Below, in pieces: positions 35,217-46,175 of a stretch of DNA of 64,000 nucleotides. The position numbers were made by a program, and so were the translations under genes. The notes beneath the pieces are model-generated. The model ran no database searches and was not told the origin of the DNA. It saw only the letters and a list, made by a program, of their open reading frames with translations. Within the stretch, counting starts at the first letter, position 1. The number at the start of each line of letters is the position of its first letter. The DNA comes from Phycisphaerae bacterium (lineage in GTDB: Bacteria > Planctomycetota > Phycisphaerae > Phycisphaerales > Phycisphaeraceae): NCBI GenBank assembly GCA_030426385.1, contig JAUHYI010000001.1, forward strand, positions 1 through 64,000. Direction: 5' to 3'.

Positions 35217-36299
35217 TTATGGACTGCCTGGAACAGCAGCACAGGTTGCGCGCTCAATCAGCTTGCCGTCGATCATGATTTGATGAACCGGCCGACTGCG
35301 ATCATTGATGCGTTGGATCAACAACTCGGTCGCTGACCGTCCCATGTCTTCCATGGAAAAGCGGTAGGTTGATAACTGTGGGCGGGATTTTTGCGAGTCG
35401 AGCGTATCGTCCATACCGATAAGACTAATGTCCTCGGGTACTCGCAACCCGTGCTCCTGTAACAGCGACAGCAGACTGCACGCATACACGTCCCACGAAA
35501 TCAAAGCCGTCGGACGTGGCGATGCTTGAACAATTTTCTTCACGTACGCGGCCATCACCTTATCGTGCGTTTTTTCATTGATGTCATGCCTTTCACATAA
35601 TTTCGGATTCACGATCGGCTGATCGATATCCTGAAAAAATTGATAAAAAGCACGCTCTTGCCACTTGCGATGAATCGAATCATTCGCCGTAACAAACATT
35701 GCAATATTACGATGCCCCAGTCCCCACAGATAGGCCAACTGACTTTGAACTGCTTTTTCAATGTTCGGCATGACTGAATCAATATTCAAATCATGATTAA
35801 CCCGATCGATGATCGCTATCGGCAAACGATCGGCCAATATTTTCAACAACAATCCAGGCAGATCACCTTCAACCACCAAACCATCAACGCGGTGCTCCGC
35901 CACCATCGCTGGCGGCGCTTCTTCGCCTGACGCGATACTTTTAATCATTAAGTGGTAATCATATTTCTCGGCAGCCAATTGAATCCCCGCCAGCACACGA
36001 CTGTAATAACCGTCATCAACACGGGCCTGACCAAGCAGAAAATCATTGGCACAAAACCCAATGGTTTGCGTTTTTTGTGGCGTGTCATTCCCACCCGCAT
36101 AACGACGCCGAATGGCCTGGCCGAATAATGGATCGGGCTGGTAGTTGAGTTGCTTGACAACCTCCAGCACTTTATGCCGCGTCTCCTCTTTAGGAATCGG
36201 ACTGTTATTAAGCACCAGCGACACGGTCGAGCGAGACACGCCTGCTTTTTTAGCGACATCACGAATACTGACGGGTTTTTTCTTACTTTTGACAGCCAT
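35217..36299 (-). CDS. LacI-family transcriptional regulator
   Basis: Repressor of 360 residues. The N-terminus after a basic tail has the LacI DNA-binding domain ('SIRDVAKKAGVSRSTVSLVL', hinge 'QLNYQPDP'), then a periplasmic-binding-type effector domain with 'ALISWDVYACSLLSLLQEHG' and 'VPEDISLIGMDD'. A C-terminal 'CAAVPGS' shows an unremarkable end. It is divergent from the TIM-barrel/Gfo genes at 36672 and heads the reverse run to 26868. A palindromic operator candidate sits between its own -35 and -10 boxes, so autorepression and control of both arms are likely. Confidence 0.92.
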   Translation of the reverse strand: MAVKSKKKPVSIRDVAKKAGVSRSTVSLVLNNSPIPKEETRHKVLEVVKQLNYQPDPLFGQAIRRRYAGGNDTPQKTQTIGFCANDFLLGQARVDDGYYSRVLAGIQLAAEKYDYHLMIKSIASGEEAPPAMVAEHRVDGLVVEGDLPGLLLKILADRLPIAIIDRVNHDLNIDSVMPNIEKAVQSQLAYLWGLGHRNIAMFVTANDSIHRKWQERAFYQFFQDIDQPIVNPKLCERHDINEKTHDKVMAAYVKKIVQASPRPTALISWDVYACSLLSLLQEHGLRVPEDISLIGMDDTLDSQKSRPQLSTYRFSMEDMGRSATELLIQRINDRSRPVHQIMIDGKLIERATCAAVPGSP

Positions 36300-36671
36300 A
36301 ACGACAAACTTTCAGTCAAAATTGGATTGTCCAGTTGACAGAATACTTTCACCGCGGTAACCTGTCAAGCACCTTCGTGAATTTTCCCGGATATCCCAAC
36401 AATGTCGCATGAGAGCCTGCCCAAAACCACAAACCCAAGCCCACTTTCCGCGACACGGCCGGTTGCAGCGGCAAATGCGACAAGCATCCATTTCACGCGA
36501 CTCTCGCCAGCCAGGCCCAACTGCCCCACCATTCAATCTGATTAATCCGTATCCATCGCGATATGCCTCAACCCGTCTACCTCTTTATATGTTCCGTTTG
36601 ATGTTTTGATTTTGACAGGACCCGACAAAAACCGGCGAGGCTGCCCCAGCCGTAAACCGACGGGTACACCC
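36300..36671. promoter_or_regulatory. divergent LacI/TIM-barrel promoter region with central operator
   Basis: No gene is supported in these 372 bases. At 36335-36368 both strands carry a TTGACA -35 box, facing each other as a 7-bp inverted repeat. Reverse: TTGACA 36368-36363, 17-base spacer, TATTCT 36345-36340. Forward: TTGACA 36335-36340, 17-base spacer, weaker TAACCT 36358-36363. The 8-bp palindrome ACCGCGGT (36351-36358, in TCACCGCGGTAA), with the CG centre typical of LacI operators, lies in both spacers. The forward leader to 36672 is about 300 bases and shows no riboswitch that I recognise. Confidence 0.7.
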
Positions 36672-37589
36672 ATGAAGCAGTTCAGATACGCCATCAACAC
36701 CAACCAGTTTCGCAACCACCAATCGACGGCGGAGATAGTCGACCTGTGCGCCAAAGCACCCGTCCAGGGAATCGAATGGGGACTTCGAAAGGTTGAAACA
36801 TCGGCCAGTGATGTTCGCGAAATGAAGCAGCGCACCGATGACGCTGATCTGGAGATCGCTGGCTTTTTAAATGCGGGGAGCCTTTGGGACTTTGATGAGA
36901 TACGACAATGGAGCGAAGCTGTCGCCCAATGCCGCCCCACCACGCTACGGGTTAATCCACCCTGGTTTGCCTGGGACTACAACGAATCACTGCATCAAAA
37001 GAACTCGTATCTCGACCTCGTCAAACACACCAAAGACGCTCTGCTTCATCTGGCATCGCTAGCATGCGAATACGGCATCAAGTATGTCATCGAAATACAT
37101 GCGGGCAGTATCGCCGCATCGCCATGGGCCATGCACCACATGCTTGAAGATATTGATCCGGATTGCGTGGGCGTGATCTATGACCCGGCGAACACGATCA
37201 TTGAAGGCTTCATTCGGCCACGCGGAGCCTGTGAATTACTGGGAAATCATCTGGCATACGTGCATGCTAAAAATCTCACCTTCGTGCCAGCAGCAACCTA
37301 TTCAGAAACCGACGAACCACGACGATCACATTGGCAATTTCACCGCACATTCCTCGACCAAGGCATGGTGGATTATGTGGAAGTCTATTTCGCACTTAAA
37401 TTAGCTGGGTTTCATGGCTGGATTTCGCTCGAGGAATTCGCAACCAATGACCCGGTTCGTGAAGTGTCACGCAATGTGCACTTTCTGGAACAATGCAATC
37501 AAACTGTTCCAACACAACTGCTCGAACCATTCAGCAATTTCCCCGCGCCTGTAGATCAGTCTGCAAGGGCGGAGTCCGCGCAATTTTGA
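36672..37589 (+). CDS. sugar phosphate isomerase/epimerase-like TIM barrel
   Basis: Xylose-isomerase-like protein of 305 residues from ATG 36672; an upstream TTG at 36606 would add residues without family resemblance. Candidate metal ligands: Glu in 'YVIEIHAGS', Asp in 'GVIYDPANT', His in 'LAYVHAKN' and Glu in 'GWISLEEF'. Besides isomerases, this fold includes enzymes that eliminate or hydrate 3-keto-glycosides and 2-hydroxyglucals made by Gfo/Idh/MocA partners. The next gene, 10 bases away, is a Gfo member, so that kind of oxidation-elimination chemistry is attractive here. It is first in a forward series divergent from LacI. Confidence 0.82.
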   Translation: MKQFRYAINTNQFRNHQSTAEIVDLCAKAPVQGIEWGLRKVETSASDVREMKQRTDDADLEIAGFLNAGSLWDFDEIRQWSEAVAQCRPTTLRVNPPWFAWDYNESLHQKNSYLDLVKHTKDALLHLASLACEYGIKYVIEIHAGSIAASPWAMHHMLEDIDPDCVGVIYDPANTIIEGFIRPRGACELLGNHLAYVHAKNLTFVPAATYSETDEPRRSHWQFHRTFLDQGMVDYVEVYFALKLAGFHGWISLEEFATNDPVREVSRNVHFLEQCNQTVPTQLLEPFSNFPAPVDQSARAESAQF

Positions 37590-37599
37590 GGTTAATCAT

Positions 37600-38838
37600 A
37601 TGGGTATCTGTGTCGGCATCATCGGCGCTGGTGCGTTCGCGCAAGAGTTTATTCCGTTGTTCAAGGCTCATCCACTTGTCGATCACGTGGTGCTGTGCGA
37701 TCAAAACGCCGAAAAATTAGCGGCAGTTTCTCAACAATTCGATATAGCCGAAACACTGCCTAGCCTTGATGACGCATGCGATAGTAACCTCGATGCTGTC
37801 GCCATTTTTACGCAGAACTGGTTGCATGGCCCGCAATCAGTACAGGCATTGCACGCAGGCAAACATGTGTATTCTGCGGTGCCCAGTGCGATTACGCTTG
37901 ATGAGATGACAGCCCTGGTTGATGCGGTGACCCAGACCGGCAATATCTATATGCTGGGTGAAACCAGCTACTATTATCCCGAAGCGATCTACTGTCGTCA
38001 GAAACATGCGGACCATGCGTTTGGCAAAATTGTCTATGCCGAAGCGGAATATCTACATGATTGGGATCACGGCCTGTATGACGTGATGAAATGGCGTGGC
38101 GGCGATCATTGGCTGCGCACGGCGGGACATCCGCCGATGTTTTACCCAACGCATTCAATAGGGATGGTGCTCAGCGTAACCGGCGCACATTTCACGCACG
38201 TATCATGCCAGGGTTTTGAAGATCATCATGACGATGGCATCTATCAACCCAATATCAACGAATGGGACAACCGCTTTAGCAATCAAACCGCGCTATTCAA
38301 AGTCAGCGATGGAAGTTCCTGCCGAATCAACGAATTTCGTCGCGTGGGACACCCGGGTTGTGAACGCATGTCGATATGGGGAACCGACGCAGGCTTCGAA
38401 CACAACTGGGCAGGCCACATGTGGGTCACCAAAGACCGCGAGCGATGCGAACGTCTCGATGATCTGCTCACCTGCCGCGATGCTGTCAAACAAACATCAG
38501 GCGGCATGGAAAAAATCGGCGCTGAAGCGCACAAGGATGTGAGCGCGGTGCATCCTATCGACCGCTTGCCAAGTACCTTCCGAGGTTTGACCAATGGCCA
38601 CGCAGGCTCCCATCAGTTCCTCGTCGATGATTTTGTGAAGGCTGTTAATACCAGCAAGCAACCCCCCGTCGATGTCTGGAAGGCTGCTCGATACCTCATC
38701 CCCGGCCTGATCGCGCATGAATCTTCTGTTCGCCAGGGTGAATTGCTCGCGATTCCCGATCTGGGTGATGGACCGAACGCACACCCGCACGATCAACCCA
38801 GAGTTGACATGCATACCACGTGTACAAACAAAGCATGA
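37600..38838 (+). CDS. Gfo/Idh/MocA-family protein lacking the EKP catalytic motif
   Basis: Rossmann protein of 412 residues, longer than the usual 340-380. The dinucleotide motif 'VGIIGAGAFAQE' is intact, but the family E-K-P is replaced by A93-V94-P95 ('YSAVPSAIT'), so the usual catalytic Lys is missing. The C-terminal domain carries 'FYPTHSIGMVLSVTG' and 'FEDHHDDG', reminiscent of the GH109-like branch, whose members use NAD in a redox-assisted glycosidase mechanism. TGAGG lies 8 bases before the ATG. The stop overlaps the ceramidase-like start (ATGA), showing translational coupling. A non-standard or glycoside-cleaving role is possible, but only by analogy. Confidence 0.83.
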   Translation: MGICVGIIGAGAFAQEFIPLFKAHPLVDHVVLCDQNAEKLAAVSQQFDIAETLPSLDDACDSNLDAVAIFTQNWLHGPQSVQALHAGKHVYSAVPSAITLDEMTALVDAVTQTGNIYMLGETSYYYPEAIYCRQKHADHAFGKIVYAEAEYLHDWDHGLYDVMKWRGGDHWLRTAGHPPMFYPTHSIGMVLSVTGAHFTHVSCQGFEDHHDDGIYQPNINEWDNRFSNQTALFKVSDGSSCRINEFRRVGHPGCERMSIWGTDAGFEHNWAGHMWVTKDRERCERLDDLLTCRDAVKQTSGGMEKIGAEAHKDVSAVHPIDRLPSTFRGLTNGHAGSHQFLVDDFVKAVNTSKQPPVDVWKAARYLIPGLIAHESSVRQGELLAIPDLGDGPNAHPHDQPRVDMHTTCTNKA

Positions 38839-40127
38839 GTCAATTTACGATTTCTACATTTCGATGCGATGTCACGCCACCATTGGGCCACCCGCTTTGC
38901 GCCGGATGGTGTGGTCGTGCTGTGGCGATCGCAGACCCATTGTTTGCACGAGGCGTGGTCATACACGGCGACCAAAAACCAATCGTACTCTGTGCGATCG
39001 ATTGGGCCGAGATCAGCAATGACAGTTACCTGTCGATGTGCCAGTGCTTGGCCAAAGGCGCGGGAACCGATGCGAGTCGAGTCGCATTGCATTGCACTCA
39101 TGCGCATTGCGCGCCATGGCCAGACGCTCAGGCCCATGGGCTTCTTCGCGATTATCCCGATGTGCCGCAAATTATGGACACGTCATGGATGAATGCGGTG
39201 ACAGAGCGCTTAACCAATGCTGTACAACAAGCCACGCCACAAAAAATTCCCGTGACACACATAGGCTTCGGGCAGTCCGCCGTCCATCAAGTGGCATCAA
39301 ACCGGCGTATTCTCGATAGCCACAACCATGTCCAGGCAATTCGCTGGACTAAAACATCCGATCCGACTGTGCGAGCAATGCCCGAGGGACTGATTGATCC
39401 GATCCTGCGCAGCGTGAGTTTCTGGAACGAAGCAAAGGAACTGGCCACGATGCATTATTACGCAGTGCATCCAACCAGCTACGATGACGATCGCACGATC
39501 ACGGCAGATTTTGTCGGTATTGCCCTGCAAAAGTTACAAGAAGACAAGCCCAACACCTTACAGATTTATTTCACAGGATGTGCAGGCAATATAACGGCAG
39601 GCAAGTACAACGACGGATCGCCTGCCAACCGTCAGGTTTTAGCTGATCGCATATATCAAGCCTTAAAGCAATCCAGCCAGAGTACTGACCGTCACCCACT
39701 CAACGAATTGAAATGGTCAACGCAATCGGTGCACCTGCCACCACGCGAAGACCTTGATGAGCAATTGCTGCGACAAACTATCGCCGATGCCGAACAAGAT
39801 CCCATGGTACGCAACAAATCAGCCATCCAATGGGCATACTTGCAACGTCAAGAACGACCGATTCTATTGTCATGCCTGACGCTAGGGGATCATGTCAAAC
39901 TGCTGCACGTACCGGGCGAGGCTTTTGTGGAATACCAACTTGAAGCACAACGCCTCGCGCGCAAACATTTTGTCGCGACGGCGGCATACGGCGATTGTGG
40001 CCCCGGCTATATCTGCTTGGAACGTTCTTCCATCGAAGGTGGCTACGAACCGACCGACTCCTTCGTCGCCGGCCGCAGTGAACATGTCATGCGCGAAGCG
40101 ATTCATCAACTAATCCTCGGCCCATAA
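38835..40127 (+). CDS. neutral-ceramidase-like zinc hydrolase, cytoplasmic
   Basis: Protein of 430 residues resembling the N-terminal catalytic domain of neutral/alkaline ceramidases; the C-terminal immunoglobulin-like domain of true ceramidases is absent. Zinc-site elements are conserved: 'CTHAHCAP' (H89, H91), 'AVHPT' (H212) and 'HVPGEAFVEY' near residue 365. At the place of the G-D-V-S-P-N nucleophile motif the sequence reads 'CAGNITAG', putting T254 where Ser is expected. There is no signal peptide, so a lipid ceramide is an unlikely substrate; an N-acyl or other amide of a sugar is possible. ATG 38835 overlaps the Gfo stop. A second copy lies at 44757. Confidence 0.8.
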   Translation: MSQFTISTFRCDVTPPLGHPLCAGWCGRAVAIADPLFARGVVIHGDQKPIVLCAIDWAEISNDSYLSMCQCLAKGAGTDASRVALHCTHAHCAPWPDAQAHGLLRDYPDVPQIMDTSWMNAVTERLTNAVQQATPQKIPVTHIGFGQSAVHQVASNRRILDSHNHVQAIRWTKTSDPTVRAMPEGLIDPILRSVSFWNEAKELATMHYYAVHPTSYDDDRTITADFVGIALQKLQEDKPNTLQIYFTGCAGNITAGKYNDGSPANRQVLADRIYQALKQSSQSTDRHPLNELKWSTQSVHLPPREDLDEQLLRQTIADAEQDPMVRNKSAIQWAYLQRQERPILLSCLTLGDHVKLLHVPGEAFVEYQLEAQRLARKHFVATAAYGDCGPGYICLERSSIEGGYEPTDSFVAGRSEHVMREAIHQLILGP

Positions 40128-40246
40128 GGTCGCACCACAATACGACACGCTTCCAAATTTTACTTGTTGTTAAACCCCAACCACCAAAACCTCACTCAAA
40201 TTTTCGTAGCACCAACGATAAAAGAATAAAACAAAAGGAACCCTCA

Positions 40247-41158
40247 ATGACTAAACCATTAAAGATAGGAATGATCGGACTCGATACGTCGCACGTCGAA
40301 GCCTTCGCGCGATTAATGACTGACAAGAACGACCCGGACTATGTCGGCGGCGGAACAATCGTCGCCGCGTACCCCGGCGGATCACCCGACTTTGACCTGA
40401 GCATCAATCGCGTTGAGACGTACACCCAACTGCTTCGTGATAAGTATGACACCACAATCGTCGATACCCCAGAGGCTGTCGCGGAACAGTCAGACCTGAT
40501 AATCATTCATTCCGTGGATGGGCGTGTGCATCGCGAGCAATTCGAGCGAATCGCCCGCTTTGGCCGTCCCGTGTTTATCGACAAACCATTTGCCACGACC
40601 AGTGACGATGCCCGTGCTATTTTAGAAATGGCAGAAGCAGACCAAGTTACTGTCATGAGTTGTTCGTCATTGCGTTATGCCGAACCGTTCGCCGAAGCAT
40701 TGCGTGACAATTCCGCGGGCAACATTACGAGTGTGGATGTGTGGGGGCCACTTTCATTTCAGGAAACGCAACCGGGCTACCTCTGGTACGGCGTGCATGC
40801 GTTTGAAATGATGGTGGCGGCGATGGGCGTTGGCTGTCAATATGCGAACGTCGCCATTCAGTCACAAGCGGAAATTGTGAGTTGCCAATGGGACGACGGG
40901 CGCACGGCAACCTACCGCGGACTGATGACTGGCCCTGGTACTTTCGGCGCCGTGATTCATCGTGAAAACGGCGTCCAAGTCGTCGATGTCGCGCAAACCA
41001 AGCGCCCTTACTATGCGGGCTTACTTGAAATGATTTTCAGCCATCTACCATTTGGGCGTAGCGCCATCGCTTCCGACGAGATGGTTGAAGTGATCCGCAC
41101 GATTGAAATCGCCAACGAAGCACGCGAAGCCGCTGCCGTTACCCAAACTACCGCTTAA
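40247..41158 (+). CDS. Gfo/Idh/MocA-family oxidoreductase, short form
   Basis: Oxidoreductase of 303 residues, short for the family. The Rossmann turn is unusual: 'IGMIGLDTSHVEAF' with T-S-H after the glycine region, a signature of a distinct subgroup. A D-K-P triad ('FIDKPFATT') keeps the catalytic Lys. The C-terminal domain has 'GYLWYGVHAFEMM', with the His expected for substrate binding. It probably oxidises or reduces a cyclic sugar or polyol with NAD(P). It stands 119 bp after the ceramidase-like gene and 35 bp before the DegT aminotransferase gene, suggesting that it makes or uses the keto-sugar of that enzyme. GGAA precedes the start. Confidence 0.83.
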   Translation: MTKPLKIGMIGLDTSHVEAFARLMTDKNDPDYVGGGTIVAAYPGGSPDFDLSINRVETYTQLLRDKYDTTIVDTPEAVAEQSDLIIIHSVDGRVHREQFERIARFGRPVFIDKPFATTSDDARAILEMAEADQVTVMSCSSLRYAEPFAEALRDNSAGNITSVDVWGPLSFQETQPGYLWYGVHAFEMMVAAMGVGCQYANVAIQSQAEIVSCQWDDGRTATYRGLMTGPGTFGAVIHRENGVQVVDVAQTKRPYYAGLLEMIFSHLPFGRSAIASDEMVEVIRTIEIANEAREAAAVTQTTA

Positions 41159-41193
41159 TAATATTTTACTTTTCAGATAAGGATTCACCTGAA

Positions 41194-42471
41194 ATGAAAA
41201 CCCTTGATCACGATACGAAACAATTATCCAGCCAGCACCTGGCCGTTAATGGCGGCAAAAAAATTCGTACAACCCCCATGCCCGCGCGCCGATTGTTTGA
41301 TGAAGATGACAAACGCGCGGTAATGGATTTGTTTGATCAGGCCATCGAAGAGGGAAGCCATATCATCGGCTACGGTGGTCCCAAGGAAGAGGCGTATTGC
41401 AAGGCCTTTTGTGAATTCATGGGTGGTGGTTTTGCCGACGGCGTAAATTCCGGAACCAATGCGGTGTACGTGGCACTGCGAGCGATGGAACTGGAACCGT
41501 ACAGTGAAGTGATTGTTCCGCCGGTGTCTGATCCTGGTGGGATTATGCCCGTGGTCATGTGCCAATTGATTCCCGTGCCTGCCGATTGCGAACCAGACTT
41601 TTTCAATATCGATCCCGCTTCGATCGAAGAAAAAATCACGCCGCGCACCGCCGCAATTGTGGTCGCCCATATCTCAGGCCGGCCTGCCGACATGGATGCA
41701 ATCATGGCGATCGCCCAGCGGCATAATCTGAAGGTCATCGAAGATTGCGCACAAGCCCACGGCGCCCGATACAAAGGACGGGCAGTCGGATCGATTGGCC
41801 ATGTCGCCGCATTCTCAACCATGTTTGGTAAACACCACGCCTGCGGCGGACAAGGCGGCCTGGTGTACAGCCGGGATGAATCCACCTATTGGAAAATTCG
41901 CCGACATGCCGACCGCGGCAAACCATGGGGCGTCGAGAATCCCACGGGTAATGTCGGGGCCGATTTAAATTGTAATATGGATGAAATGCACGCGGCACTT
42001 GGCGTCAGCCAGATGCGCAAATTACCCGGCCATCTGAATCACATTCGCAAACTGGCACGTCGGTTGGCCGATGGGATACGACCCCTGCAAGCCGTACACA
42101 TGGTTGATGATCCGCCGAACTGCGAAGGGTCCTTCTGGTTTATTGTCCTTCGCTTTGATAAGCGTAAACTGCCGATTGATAAAGCAACCTTTATAGAAGC
42201 ACTCAATGCGGAAGGCATTCTGTTTTCAGACACCTACATGCATAGTCCCGTTGCTTGGCCATGGTTCGAACAACGCGCAGCCTTTGGCACTAGCCAGCTC
42301 CCCTGGCGTCACCCTGACCAGAAAGCAAGCACTCCGAACCAACTGGAACTACCCCGCTTGCTCGCGGTGGATCGAGATCATTTTTCAGTCAAAATACATG
42401 AAGGCTACTCGATACAAGATGTCGATGACATCGTTGCTGTGCTTGCAAAAGTCGAATCGGCCTTCGCTTAA
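41194..42471 (+). CDS. DegT/DnrJ/EryC1/StrS-family PLP-dependent sugar aminotransferase
   Basis: PLP enzyme of 425 residues. The internal-aldimine Lys is K213 in 'STMFGKHHACGGQGG', the family pattern, preceded by 'VIEDCAQAHGA' with the Asp that contacts the PLP pyridine nitrogen and the stacking His. N-terminal 'NSGTNAVYVALRAMEL' forms the phosphate pocket. These enzymes interconvert keto-sugars or inososes and amino sugars or aminocyclitols, usually with glutamate. They are best known from biosynthesis; here the neighbours are catabolic-looking, so it may remove the amino group from an imported aminosugar or make a 3-amino sugar. AAGGA lies 10 bases before the ATG. Confidence 0.9.
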   Translation: MKTLDHDTKQLSSQHLAVNGGKKIRTTPMPARRLFDEDDKRAVMDLFDQAIEEGSHIIGYGGPKEEAYCKAFCEFMGGGFADGVNSGTNAVYVALRAMELEPYSEVIVPPVSDPGGIMPVVMCQLIPVPADCEPDFFNIDPASIEEKITPRTAAIVVAHISGRPADMDAIMAIAQRHNLKVIEDCAQAHGARYKGRAVGSIGHVAAFSTMFGKHHACGGQGGLVYSRDESTYWKIRRHADRGKPWGVENPTGNVGADLNCNMDEMHAALGVSQMRKLPGHLNHIRKLARRLADGIRPLQAVHMVDDPPNCEGSFWFIVLRFDKRKLPIDKATFIEALNAEGILFSDTYMHSPVAWPWFEQRAAFGTSQLPWRHPDQKASTPNQLELPRLLAVDRDHFSVKIHEGYSIQDVDDIVAVLAKVESAFA

Positions 42472-42505
42472 CTTGTAACATTATCCAAACGATATAGGAC
42501 ACATA

Positions 42506-43411
42506 ATGATCGATTCCCATCAACATGTTTTCTGGTGGAAACGCAACGACGTTGGCCTGATTGCTGACATGGATGAACACGGCATCGAAACGGCCTGGCT
42601 GCTTTCATGGGAAATCGGCCCGTTCGAAGATCATGCCTACTACCACCATGCGCTAAACCCCGTGCATCGTCGTCCGGACGGCACACACGCAGGCATCCCA
42701 CTTAGTGATTTGATCAAAGCCCGCGATCGATATCCCGATCGATTTATTCTGGGATATTGCCCGCACCCCCTGCTCGGTGATGCTCCGGGATTTTTTGAAG
42801 CGGCATATCACATGCACGGCGTACGCGTGTGCGGCGAATGGAAGTTTCGAATGCTATTCGACGACCCTCGCTGCCTGAACCTATTCCGTAAAGCTGGCGA
42901 ACTGGGATGCCCGGTCGTGTTGCATCTGGATGTGCCCTACATCCACGACGAAAAGACAGGCGAACCCACGTACATGACTGACTGGTACGGCGGAACTGTC
43001 GCGAACCTCGAACGAGCTTTGCAAGCATGCCCGCAAACAAATTTCATCGGCCACGCTCCAGGATTCTGGCGCGAAATCAGCGGCGATTCAGACATCGCGC
43101 GCAGTGCCTATCCTCGTGGCCCTGTCACGCAAGGCGGACGCTTGTACGACCTGTTCGATCGTTACCCCAATCTCTATGCAGACATCTCAGCAGGTTCGGG
43201 ACGCGGCGCGTTCGAGCGTGATCTCGAACATGCTCGAACGTTTGCAATTCGATATGCCGACCGCCTGTTGTTTGCTCGTGACTATTACGGCGGGGAATGG
43301 AATCAACTGATCGATTCGCTCGACTTGCCCGAGGATATACGAACAAAAATTTGTGGCGAAAACGCCAAACGCCTGCTGTCTCAAGCGGACAAAGCCGCCA
43401 GCGAAAAATGA
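42506..43411 (+). CDS. amidohydrolase-2-family metal-dependent hydrolase (lactonase-like)
   Basis: TIM-barrel hydrolase of 301 residues. The N-terminal metal motif H5-x-H7 ('DSHQHVFWW') is intact, with later His residues in 'VVLHLDVPY' and 'NFIGHAPGF' and an Asp in 'LLFARDYYGG'. Related proteins open sugar lactones (L-fuconolactone, L-rhamnonolactone) or hydrolyse or decarboxylate small acids. AGGA lies 6 bases before the ATG, 34 bp after the aminotransferase gene. A lactonase role fits the nearby dehydrogenases and sugar-acid dehydratases, but the family is broad. Confidence 0.8.
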   Translation: MIDSHQHVFWWKRNDVGLIADMDEHGIETAWLLSWEIGPFEDHAYYHHALNPVHRRPDGTHAGIPLSDLIKARDRYPDRFILGYCPHPLLGDAPGFFEAAYHMHGVRVCGEWKFRMLFDDPRCLNLFRKAGELGCPVVLHLDVPYIHDEKTGEPTYMTDWYGGTVANLERALQACPQTNFIGHAPGFWREISGDSDIARSAYPRGPVTQGGRLYDLFDRYPNLYADISAGSGRGAFERDLEHARTFAIRYADRLLFARDYYGGEWNQLIDSLDLPEDIRTKICGENAKRLLSQADKAASEK

Positions 43412-43468
43412 TGATACTATCGCATGCAACAAAGCACTCGGCCGCGTGCCCGTGTGTGTGTTTTAGTC

Positions 43469-43526
43469 CCCCGCGAGTCACCGGGGAAGTGGGAGAGTGG
43501 GAATGCGTGCGTGGGGGGTGGCGGGG
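43469..43526 (+). other. G-rich intergenic element with hairpin
   Basis: After the amidohydrolase stop the forward strand holds a 5-bp hairpin (CCCCG 43469-43473 with CGGGG 43482-43486), then G-tracts at 43483, 43491, 43499, 43513-43518 and 43523-43526 with one 11-base loop. It could form a G-quadruplex of long-loop type. An upstream (GT)n stretch is at about 43452-43460. Similar GT/G-run elements occur at 25149-25185 and, as C-tracts, at 1-18. Confidence 0.4.
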
Positions 43527-43697
43527 CATGTCTCAGGCCATTGACCCGAGGTTAACCCGACATGACTTTCAAACTGACCCACCACCAAGTGTTCCGTCAT
43601 GTTAATACTGCAACACGATGCGAACCGAGTTGAACTATCATAAGCCAACCGAGGAACATCCTCACGATCCATTCGAATTAAAGAGGCATTGCTAATC

Positions 43698-44738
43698 ATG
43701 AAAAAAGAATTAGGCGTCGGCATCGTCGGACTCGGCTGGGTAGCGGGTGCGCATATCAATGCAATGAATGCTGTCAATGGTGCCAATGTGACCGCGATAT
43801 GCTCGAGGCGCGAACACAATGTGGACGAACTCGAAGCGCAATTCGGTATTCGCCCGAGGGTTTATCAAGATCTATCCGACATGCTGAACGACCCGGATGT
43901 CGATATCGTCGATATCTGTACACCACATCCTTTTCACAAGGATCAAGCTATCGCCGCGGCCGAGGCCGGCAAAAACCTCATCATCGAAAAACCACTTGCT
44001 ATCAACTGGGACGATGCGCAAGCTATTCGTAATGCGGTCCAAACCGCTGGCGTGCAAGCGTGTGTCTGTTTCGAATGCCGATTCAGCGCACACTTTCGAA
44101 TGATTCGATCGGTCATCGACCAGGGCTTACTCGGCGAAATCCATTACGCCGAAGTGGATTACTATCACGGCATTGGCCCGTGGTATGGCCAGTTCGACTG
44201 GAATGTCAAAAAAGACATCGGCGGCAGCAGTCTTCTCACCGCCGGTTGCCACGCACTCGATGCCATGCTGATGTTCATGGATGGTGCCGTCGAGGAAGTG
44301 ACCAGCTATCACACCAGCTCGTCCTCCGACACATTCAAGCCTTACGAATATCCAACCACCAGCGTCTCAATCGTGAAGTTCGACGACGGCCACATTGGCA
44401 AAGTCACCAGTTGCATCGATTGCCTGCAACCCTACTACTTCCACATTCATCTTGTGGGCAGCGAAGGCTCCCTGCTGGACAATCGCTTCACCAGTCGCAA
44501 ACTTGATGGCTTAAAATCCAACCAATGGAGCACACTGGAAACATCGTTGATTGATAGTGGCAGCGTCGACGATCATCCTTACGAACCCCAGTTCCAGGCA
44601 TTCATCAATGCCTTGCAACAAAACCAGCAGATGCCACAGACTGATATTGAGACTGCTTTCGAATCACATCGCGTGGCTTTTGCCGCCGACTGCTCTGCCA
44701 ATGAAAATCGCACCGTCAAACTGAGCAGCTATCGATAA
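43698..44738 (+). CDS. Gfo/Idh/MocA-family oxidoreductase
   Basis: Oxidoreductase of 346 residues from ATG 43698, with AAAGAGG about 11 bases upstream; a TTG at 43689 is less likely. Rossmann motif '[13 protein letters not shown]', catalytic 'IIEKPLAIN', and the C-terminal '[12 protein letters not shown]' with the expected His/Asp. All conserved residues are present, so it is probably an active NAD(P)-dependent sugar or inositol dehydrogenase. It is the last forward gene of the cluster and ends 18 bases from the convergent ceramidase-like gene. It is the third Gfo member in this series, and each belongs to a different subgroup. Confidence 0.88.
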
Positions 44739-44756: not shown

Positions 44757-46175
44757 TTAAGCCCTTGCGCTGTCGCGCAAAAGAATTTCGCCAAGTACCA
44801 CACATTGTTGGATCAACACATCAAGCGCTTTGCCAGTGAACGGACTTTGATGCGCCGCATAGCAATCCATATCCGACATATGATCCGGATACAGATAACC
44901 ACACCAACCATTGGCCACATTCAAAACCAGCACCGAATGATCTGGAAACGCCTCACGCAAGCGCTGTTGTAAATCGGAATAGGCTTCGTTCGGCTGTGCC
45001 ATCAGCAAGGCATCGCCCAAACGCCAACCCCATACCGTATGAATCGCATCACCCTCACGATCAATCTGTTCAACTTGATTAATGCGGCGTCGAATTCGTT
45101 CCGACTGTGCCCGATCGGCACATGAATCCAACTGCGCACGCAATGCCTTAGCCGTTGGTATCGACTTCATCGGCAAATCCAACACGCGCGTGCTTGCATG
45201 GCATGTCGCGCTCGGCTCATCCTCTTGCGTTCGCCACACTGCCAGCGGCGCGCCGGATTCAACCACTTCCTGCATCACCAGTTTATGCCCTGGTAGCAAC
45301 ATACCTGACAGCACACTGAGCACAGCGTAGCCAAGCTGTCGACCATGGCCTTCGGCCACATTCACGTCAGCGACGTATTGCAATCTGGGCGCAAGTTCCC
45401 CCGATGCTCCTTGAAGAAACGCACAAGGCGCACCACCCGTTTCAGCCTCCACCACCGAACGCATTGCCCCCACATAATCGGGCGAGATAAGTTTGTTCTC
45501 CCACGCTAACGTTGTGGGATGGCACGCGTAATTCACGATCGTCGCCAACAATTTCTTATCTGCATTTCCCGTTAGCCGCCCCACCAGCAATGTGTCATCC
45601 GCAGGTTTTTCCGGATTAAAACCACAAACCAAACGCTCACCATCAGGATCCGGAAGATCACGATTGGCCGCAAGATTGCAATGGCCCGTATCCCATGTCA
45701 ACGTACAAGCCTGGTGCTGACTTTGTGCAATAGCCAACGTCGAAATTTGCTTCACACGATCGATCGTCTGTTGAAGGTAAGGCTCGATCATTTCCCCGCC
45801 GGGCAGATCGCTGCGTTCAAGATTAATCATGCCCGCAGCATGCGTATGCGTGCAAGAGATAATCAACCTGGCCGAATCGTCACCCAACATCGCCAGCAAA
45901 GGTTCACGCAACCGAGCCAATTCTCGGCCGGACACAAACACCCAGTCAAGCACAATCAGCAAGAGTGGCAGCTCATTCTTCCCACCTCGGAATGCGAGCG
46001 TTGTGGCCGTAAGCGGTTGATGCACACCACTGCAACGATCATGCGTCGCCGCACCCCACATGCGTGCATACATACCCACCGGCGGCGTGATCTCACACCG
46101 AGTCACACCGGCATACACACTCGATGCGCGCGGTCGCCATTCACGAAGGGATCGATCATGCGAAGCTGCTGACAT
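44757..46175 (-). CDS. neutral-ceramidase-like zinc hydrolase, cytoplasmic
   Basis: Protein of 472 residues, the second member of this family in the window. The zinc-site pieces 'CTHTHAAG' (H110, H112), 'NYACHPT' (H219) and a late Glu in 'MAQPNEAYSDL' are conserved. The nucleophile region reads 'LQGASGELAPR', so Ala262 sits where the ceramidase serine is expected. No signal peptide and no C-terminal immunoglobulin-like domain are present. It follows the SDR gene after 35 bp in a reverse operon with a GalD-type dehydratase, which points to sugar-derived rather than lipid substrates. The true reaction is unknown. Confidence 0.8.
   Translation of the reverse strand: MSAASHDRSLREWRPRASSVYAGVTRCEITPPVGMYARMWGAATHDRCSGVHQPLTATTLAFRGGKNELPLLLIVLDWVFVSGRELARLREPLLAMLGDDSARLIISCTHTHAAGMINLERSDLPGGEMIEPYLQQTIDRVKQISTLAIAQSQHQACTLTWDTGHCNLAANRDLPDPDGERLVCGFNPEKPADDTLLVGRLTGNADKKLLATIVNYACHPTTLAWENKLISPDYVGAMRSVVEAETGGAPCAFLQGASGELAPRLQYVADVNVAEGHGRQLGYAVLSVLSGMLLPGHKLVMQEVVESGAPLAVWRTQEDEPSATCHASTRVLDLPMKSIPTAKALRAQLDSCADRAQSERIRRRINQVEQIDREGDAIHTVWGWRLGDALLMAQPNEAYSDLQQRLREAFPDHSVLVLNVANGWCGYLYPDHMSDMDCYAAHQSPFTGKALDVLIQQCVVLGEILLRDSARA

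Follow-up and report, generated by a model that had tools for sequence, protein, structure and literature searches.

Organisation of the locus

The window, that is, the whole stretch of 64,000 nucleotides analysed here, contains an operon at 36606–44738, which encodes a TIM-barrel protein, a ceramidase-fold protein, three Gfo/Idh/MocA proteins, a DegT aminotransferase and an amidohydrolase. The features of the region are the following:

35217–36299, minus strand: LacI-family regulator, divergent from the operon
36606–37589, plus strand: xylose-isomerase-like TIM barrel (AP_endonuc_2, IolE-like; PF01261, E 3e-22, the score with the IolE model being well below its cut-off)
37600–38838, plus strand: Gfo/Idh/MocA dehydrogenase, upstream of the ceramidase-fold gene
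38835–38838, plus strand: ATGA overlap of the ceramidase-fold gene start and the stop codon of the Gfo/Idh/MocA gene before it, probable translational coupling
38835–40127, plus strand: ceramidase-fold protein, 430 aa, cytoplasmic, without C-terminal domain (translation, PF04734, AlphaFold, Foldseek to 2zws/4wgk)
40247–41158, plus strand: Gfo/Idh/MocA-type protein, whose relatives lie 3′ of the ceramidase-fold gene in Acidobacteriota
41194–42471, plus strand: DegT/DnrJ/EryC1 aminotransferase (PF01041, E 1e-68; PLP lysine kept, FGK motif; PDB relatives)
42506–43411, plus strand: amidohydrolase family 2, possible lactonase (PF04909)
43689–44738, plus strand: Gfo/Idh/MocA dehydrogenase (domain matches)
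44757–46175, minus strand: second ceramidase-fold protein, 472 aa (PF04734, 31.2 bits; Ala aligned at the Ser position, GELAP)

The coordinates and frame of the 38835–40127 gene given in the earlier note, which was made from the sequence alone, proved to be right, as the translation yields 430 aa. The start at 38835 is credible because it overlaps the stop codon of the preceding gene in ATGA, and translation of the pair is probably coupled. Judged by its PDB relatives, the DegT protein is similar to aminotransferases of sugars and of scyllo-inosose, including NtdA, and since the PLP lysine is kept, it is not of the dehydratase kind. Sugar dehydrogenases, a sugar-type aminotransferase and an IolE-like TIM barrel in one operon support the sugar-related role that the earlier note suggested. 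Around the operon, the window forms a carbohydrate island with fucosidase, GH92, heparinase-like and enolase-family genes, and it also contains a glucuronyl-esterase-like gene; the genes scanned comprised neither glycosyltransferase nor nucleotide-sugar genes. A 1039-aa neighbour in the window was considered as a GH123 enzyme, but it gave no GH123 match and the assignment was dropped. The second ceramidase-fold gene lies within 5 kb of the first, is only distantly related to it, and is followed on the same strand by genes of SDR-type and enolase/mandelate-racemase-type proteins.

Fold and active site of the 430-aa protein

The sole Pfam match of the 430-aa protein was PF04734 (Ceramidase_alk) with 33.0 bits versus a cut-off of 32.1 (E 3.5e-08), and no NCBIfam model matched it. 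This score, over the gathering cut-off, is marginal but backed by the predicted structure. The AlphaFold model, built from an input of 34 sequences, had a mean pLDDT of 96.5 and a pTM of 0.94, and a Foldseek search with it against the PDB retrieved the neutral ceramidases 2zws, 2zxc and 4wgk with E-values of 1e-24 to 3e-27 and TM-scores of 0.72–0.74 by query length (bacterial 2zws, E 2.5e-27, TMq 0.72; human 4wgk, E 6.5e-25, TMq 0.74). Beyond these nothing meaningful was found in the PDB, the next match having a probability of 0.25. A PDB profile search by sequence alone also found 2zws and 4wgk and nothing else credible; the profile was needed for this, as the single-sequence search gave no matches. 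Thus, as modelled, the protein firmly shares the catalytic fold of neutral ceramidase (ASAH2; Pseudomonas aeruginosa 2zws, human 4wgk; PF04734), as the earlier note had proposed, and belongs to the PF04734 fold family. The residues of interest are located as follows:

39099–39107, plus strand: H89-A-H91, H89 a predicted zinc ligand and H91 the predicted catalytic His, aligned to HTH of 2zws/4wgk
39303–39305, plus strand: R157, the equivalent of human Arg257, NR motif aligned (role per PMC6952831)
39468–39470, plus strand: H212, a predicted zinc ligand, aligned to the later His of ceramidases
39594–39596, plus strand: T254, at the ceramidase Ser position, variable and not a nucleophile
39918–39920, plus strand: E362, a predicted zinc ligand, aligned to the P-x-E glutamate of 2zws
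40008–40046, plus strand: Y392 and Y404, 12 residues apart as human Tyr579/Tyr591 in an ungapped alignment

In the alignment of 78 relatives, the catalytic set H89, H91, R157, H212, E362, Y392 and Y404 is essentially invariant: H89 and H91 are conserved in 76/76 sequences with letters there, R157, H212 and E362 in 78/78, and each of the two tyrosines in 77/78. The zinc ion in ceramidase structures is held by two His, a Glu and a Tyr, and the second His (human H196), with which H91 aligns, is not known to be a ligand itself. The zinc set, the second His, the Arg (R157 falls on the Arg of the ceramidase N-R-S in the profile alignment) and the second Tyr of neutral ceramidase are all aligned and conserved here, as is their spacing. 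The earlier note had listed H89, H91 and H212 as kept zinc ligands; all three are at these positions and conserved, but H91 corresponds to the catalytic second His, and the list was incomplete, as R157, E362, Y392 and Y404 also belong to the ceramidase set and are all kept. A review lists His196, Arg257, Tyr579 and Tyr591 as catalytic-pocket residues of human neutral ceramidase (PMC6952831).

The profile alignment placed T254 on the Ser of G-N-L-S-P in 2zws, exactly where the earlier note had seen it, and the protein reads GNITAG at the G-D-x-S-P-N motif, so the Ser of neutral ceramidase is missing. However, the column is not fixed for Thr either: it contains 32 T, 18 A, 13 G, 11 S, 2 N, 1 K and 1 R in the 78 sequences, its variability was also evident in a separate alignment of 65 close relatives, and it needs about 16 changes on a tree of 76 sequences, where the least possible number is 6. 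Ala and Gly offer no nucleophile, therefore position 254 is not a nucleophile in the family at large, and the idea that Thr stands in for a nucleophile did not survive, the zinc site being kept throughout. Judged from the alignments, T254 is unremarkable, an ordinary residue at a freely varying position. In the human enzyme, Ser354 stabilises the position of Arg257 according to a structure-based review, which replaced the older assignment of this Ser as “the nucleophile” (PMC6952831). Since column 254 varies and the human Ser only positions the Arg, a zinc-activated water is the likely mechanism.

The differences from neutral ceramidase (EC 3.5.1.23) are considerable. The protein is about 15% identical to it, consists of the catalytic domain only and belongs to a sugar-catabolic operon; it has Thr and A-G-K-Y-N-D-G where ceramidases have S-P-N. 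In contrast to neutral ceramidase, it has no C-terminal immunoglobulin-like domain and no sign of export or membrane association: the Pfam scan gave no match for such a domain in its 430 aa (versus 646–688 aa), and the search for a hydrophobic N-terminal segment found none, consistent with the truncated and cytoplasmic form described in the earlier note. Lacking the Ser motif, the C-terminal domain and any sign of export, the protein should not be classified as a neutral ceramidase.

Relatives and the aminotransferase partner

The close clade includes uncharacterised ceramidase-like proteins of Planctomycetota, Verrucomicrobiota, Acidobacteriota and Bacteroidota with 38–48% identity, which share the signature F-[NT]-G-x-x-G-N-[IV]-x-A-G-K-Y-N-D-G, in which K257, Y258 and N259 are conserved across the clade, and differ from the 430-aa protein at residue 254 and in their gene neighbours. 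Relatives with E ≤ 1e-10 were patchily distributed, being found in 62/392 genomes of the phylum; among seven other genomes of the same family only one had a relative, a weak match. Outside the phylum, the clade is represented in Verrucomicrobiota, Acidobacteriota and Bacteroidota and in a single Actinomycetota genome. The nearest relative on the tree (L010) comes from another family, suggesting transfer or repeated loss. Literature searches on ceramidases in Planctomycetes or Verrucomicrobia brought up no relevant paper.

Unlike the 430-aa protein, many relatives carry Sec or twin-arginine signals. Many members in one large family of the phylum start with S-R-R-x-F-L and seem to be exported via the twin-arginine route, while the protein of the window and the Gemmata-type group are without a signal peptide. 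The twin-arginine-like signals of L011–L030 suggest that this type of enzyme occurs both as an exported and as a cytoplasmic protein. At L040, L047, L051, L068, L074 and similar Gemmata-type loci, a protein of ~1000–1400 aa is encoded directly 3′ of the close relative, the two genes overlapping at L040, L051 and L074; this larger protein has matches to ceramidase-fold proteins and looks like another domain of this kind fused to further parts. In Verrucomicrobiota, frames of ~760–800 aa at L044, L045 and L052 join a ceramidase-fold domain to another part.

The genome contains about 13 ceramidase-fold genes and 10 strong DegT genes, and 4/10 of the latter have a ceramidase-fold gene within 4 kb, versus 0.20 expected (20-fold, p 6e-05), in a test picked after the operon of the window had already been seen; without the case in the window, 3/9 are still so placed. 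In the same test, Gfo/Idh/MocA genes were 4.6-fold and AP_endonuc_2 genes 2.5-fold enriched, thus the DegT link is stronger than the overall tendency of sugar genes to cluster. In seven genomes taken together, six pairings were counted versus 0.67 expected, but in the six other genomes alone the association was weaker (two cases versus about 0.5). On the contigs C41, C147 and C121 of the same genome, DegT and ceramidase-fold genes adjoin on one strand. On C147 (L107:7602-10554, minus strand), the neighbour of DegT is a tandem ceramidase-fold pair, one with Lys and the other with Thr at the Ser position.

Similar pairings were found in Acidobacteriota, Bacteroidota and Verrucomicrobiota, and many close relatives have no DegT gene nearby. 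The order ceramidase-fold–Gfo–unknown–DegT recurs several times in Terriglobia. A ~457 aa protein is encoded 3′ of the Gfo gene in clusters of this type (L061:4124-5497, L062:3813-5186, L063:3555-5231, L071:1987-3405); at three of these four loci the DegT gene comes after it, and two scanned copies of the protein gave no Pfam match. The gene order in a Bacteroidales genome is DegT–ceramidase-fold–GH20, and on C121 a GH123_N protein, assigned by one N-terminal-domain match, precedes DegT–ceramidase-fold; GH20 and GH123 are glycosidase families known for N-acetylhexosaminidases. All ceramidase-linked DegT proteins keep the PLP lysine. That they form one subfamily was considered and dropped, as the link arises in several DegT lineages.

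Proposed function and alternatives

What the analysis establishes is the catalytic fold, the conservation of the catalytic residues, a varying position 254 and the genes nearby; zinc binding, cleavage of an amide bond, an amino-sugar substrate and the sequence and direction of the reactions are inferred. The reading we favour, with a probability of roughly 45%, is that the 430-aa protein is a zinc-dependent N-acyl-amino-sugar (or amino-cyclitol) amidase, which feeds the DegT enzyme in a LacI-regulated catabolic operon. In the active site, zinc held by H89, H212, E362 and Y392 would activate a water molecule, R157, H91 and Y404 would bind and polarise the carbonyl, and T254, at the Ser position of ceramidases, would have no role as a nucleophile. 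The enzyme would act in the cytoplasm and deacylate the amino group of an amino sugar or amino-cyclitol. Next, the DegT aminotransferase would remove the freed amine, and the Gfo/Idh/MocA dehydrogenases and the TIM-barrel enzyme would process the carbon skeleton. A zinc amidase supplying a free amine would account for the intact ceramidase site as well as for the aminotransferase partner. The earlier note had guessed at N-acyl hydrolysis; the recurrent DegT partner lends support to this, while the amide bond and the substrate are suggested by the context. Counting against the amidase reading are the weaker DegT pairing in the other genomes, the many close relatives without a DegT gene nearby, the several lineages of the linked DegT proteins, the single domain match behind the GH123 link together with the 1039-aa neighbour that gave none, and the DegT enzymes studied so far, which to our knowledge work in the biosynthetic direction.

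The same zinc site and water mechanism could instead serve to cut an acyl-oxygen bond, such as that of an ester or lactone, in a sugar acid or an acylated sugar, which we consider rather unlikely. The site itself is neutral as to amide versus ester, the dehydrogenases of the operon could produce lactones, and a glucuronyl-esterase-like gene is present in the window; against this, the amidohydrolase of 42506–43411 could already be the lactonase, and the DegT partner indicates nitrogen chemistry. The resemblance of the DegT protein to sugar and scyllo-inosose aminotransferases including NtdA also brings up a biosynthetic operon, in which a dehydrogenase and DegT would build an amino sugar or amino-cyclitol and the ceramidase-fold enzyme would strip a protecting acyl group. 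Indeed, the NtdC/NtdA system of kanosamine similarly has a dehydrogenase and a sugar aminotransferase in one operon, but the pairs of this kind known to us are biosynthetic and without a ceramidase-fold hydrolase, while the setting of the operon in the window looks catabolic. As the LacI regulator, the IolE-like TIM barrel, the amidohydrolase and the surrounding fucosidase, GH92, heparinase-like and enolase-family island all fit breakdown, and the genes scanned included none for a glycosyltransferase or nucleotide sugars, biosynthesis seems improbable.

The two other explanations retain little weight. The fold and the catalytic residues are those of a true ceramidase or N-acyl-lipid hydrolase, but the sugar operon, the cytoplasmic location, the 15% identity, the lack of the C-terminal domain and the clade's own signature A-G-K-Y-N-D-G make this activity very improbable. 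That Thr254 acts as a covalent nucleophile replacing the ceramidase Ser would agree with Thr being the commonest residue of its column (32/78), but Ala and Gly together are equally common (31/78) with the zinc site intact, and with the 16 tree changes and the Arg-positioning role of human Ser354 (PMC6952831) we rejected this mechanism as hardly credible.

The amidase reading can be extended, though only as a tentative and rather doubtful generalisation, to the whole of a large uncharacterised multi-phylum branch of the ceramidase fold, whose members would be zinc N-acyl-amino-sugar/amino-cyclitol amidases within a breakdown route using a deaminating DegT and Gfo/Idh/MocA enzymes. Because of PF04734, such proteins will probably be annotated as ceramidases, in bacteria without an evident ceramide role. 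The conserved zinc site together with a Ser position free to vary clarifies which part is catalytic across the family, and the recurrent aminotransferase partner provides a substrate class to test and may point to an undescribed route of amino-sugar breakdown.
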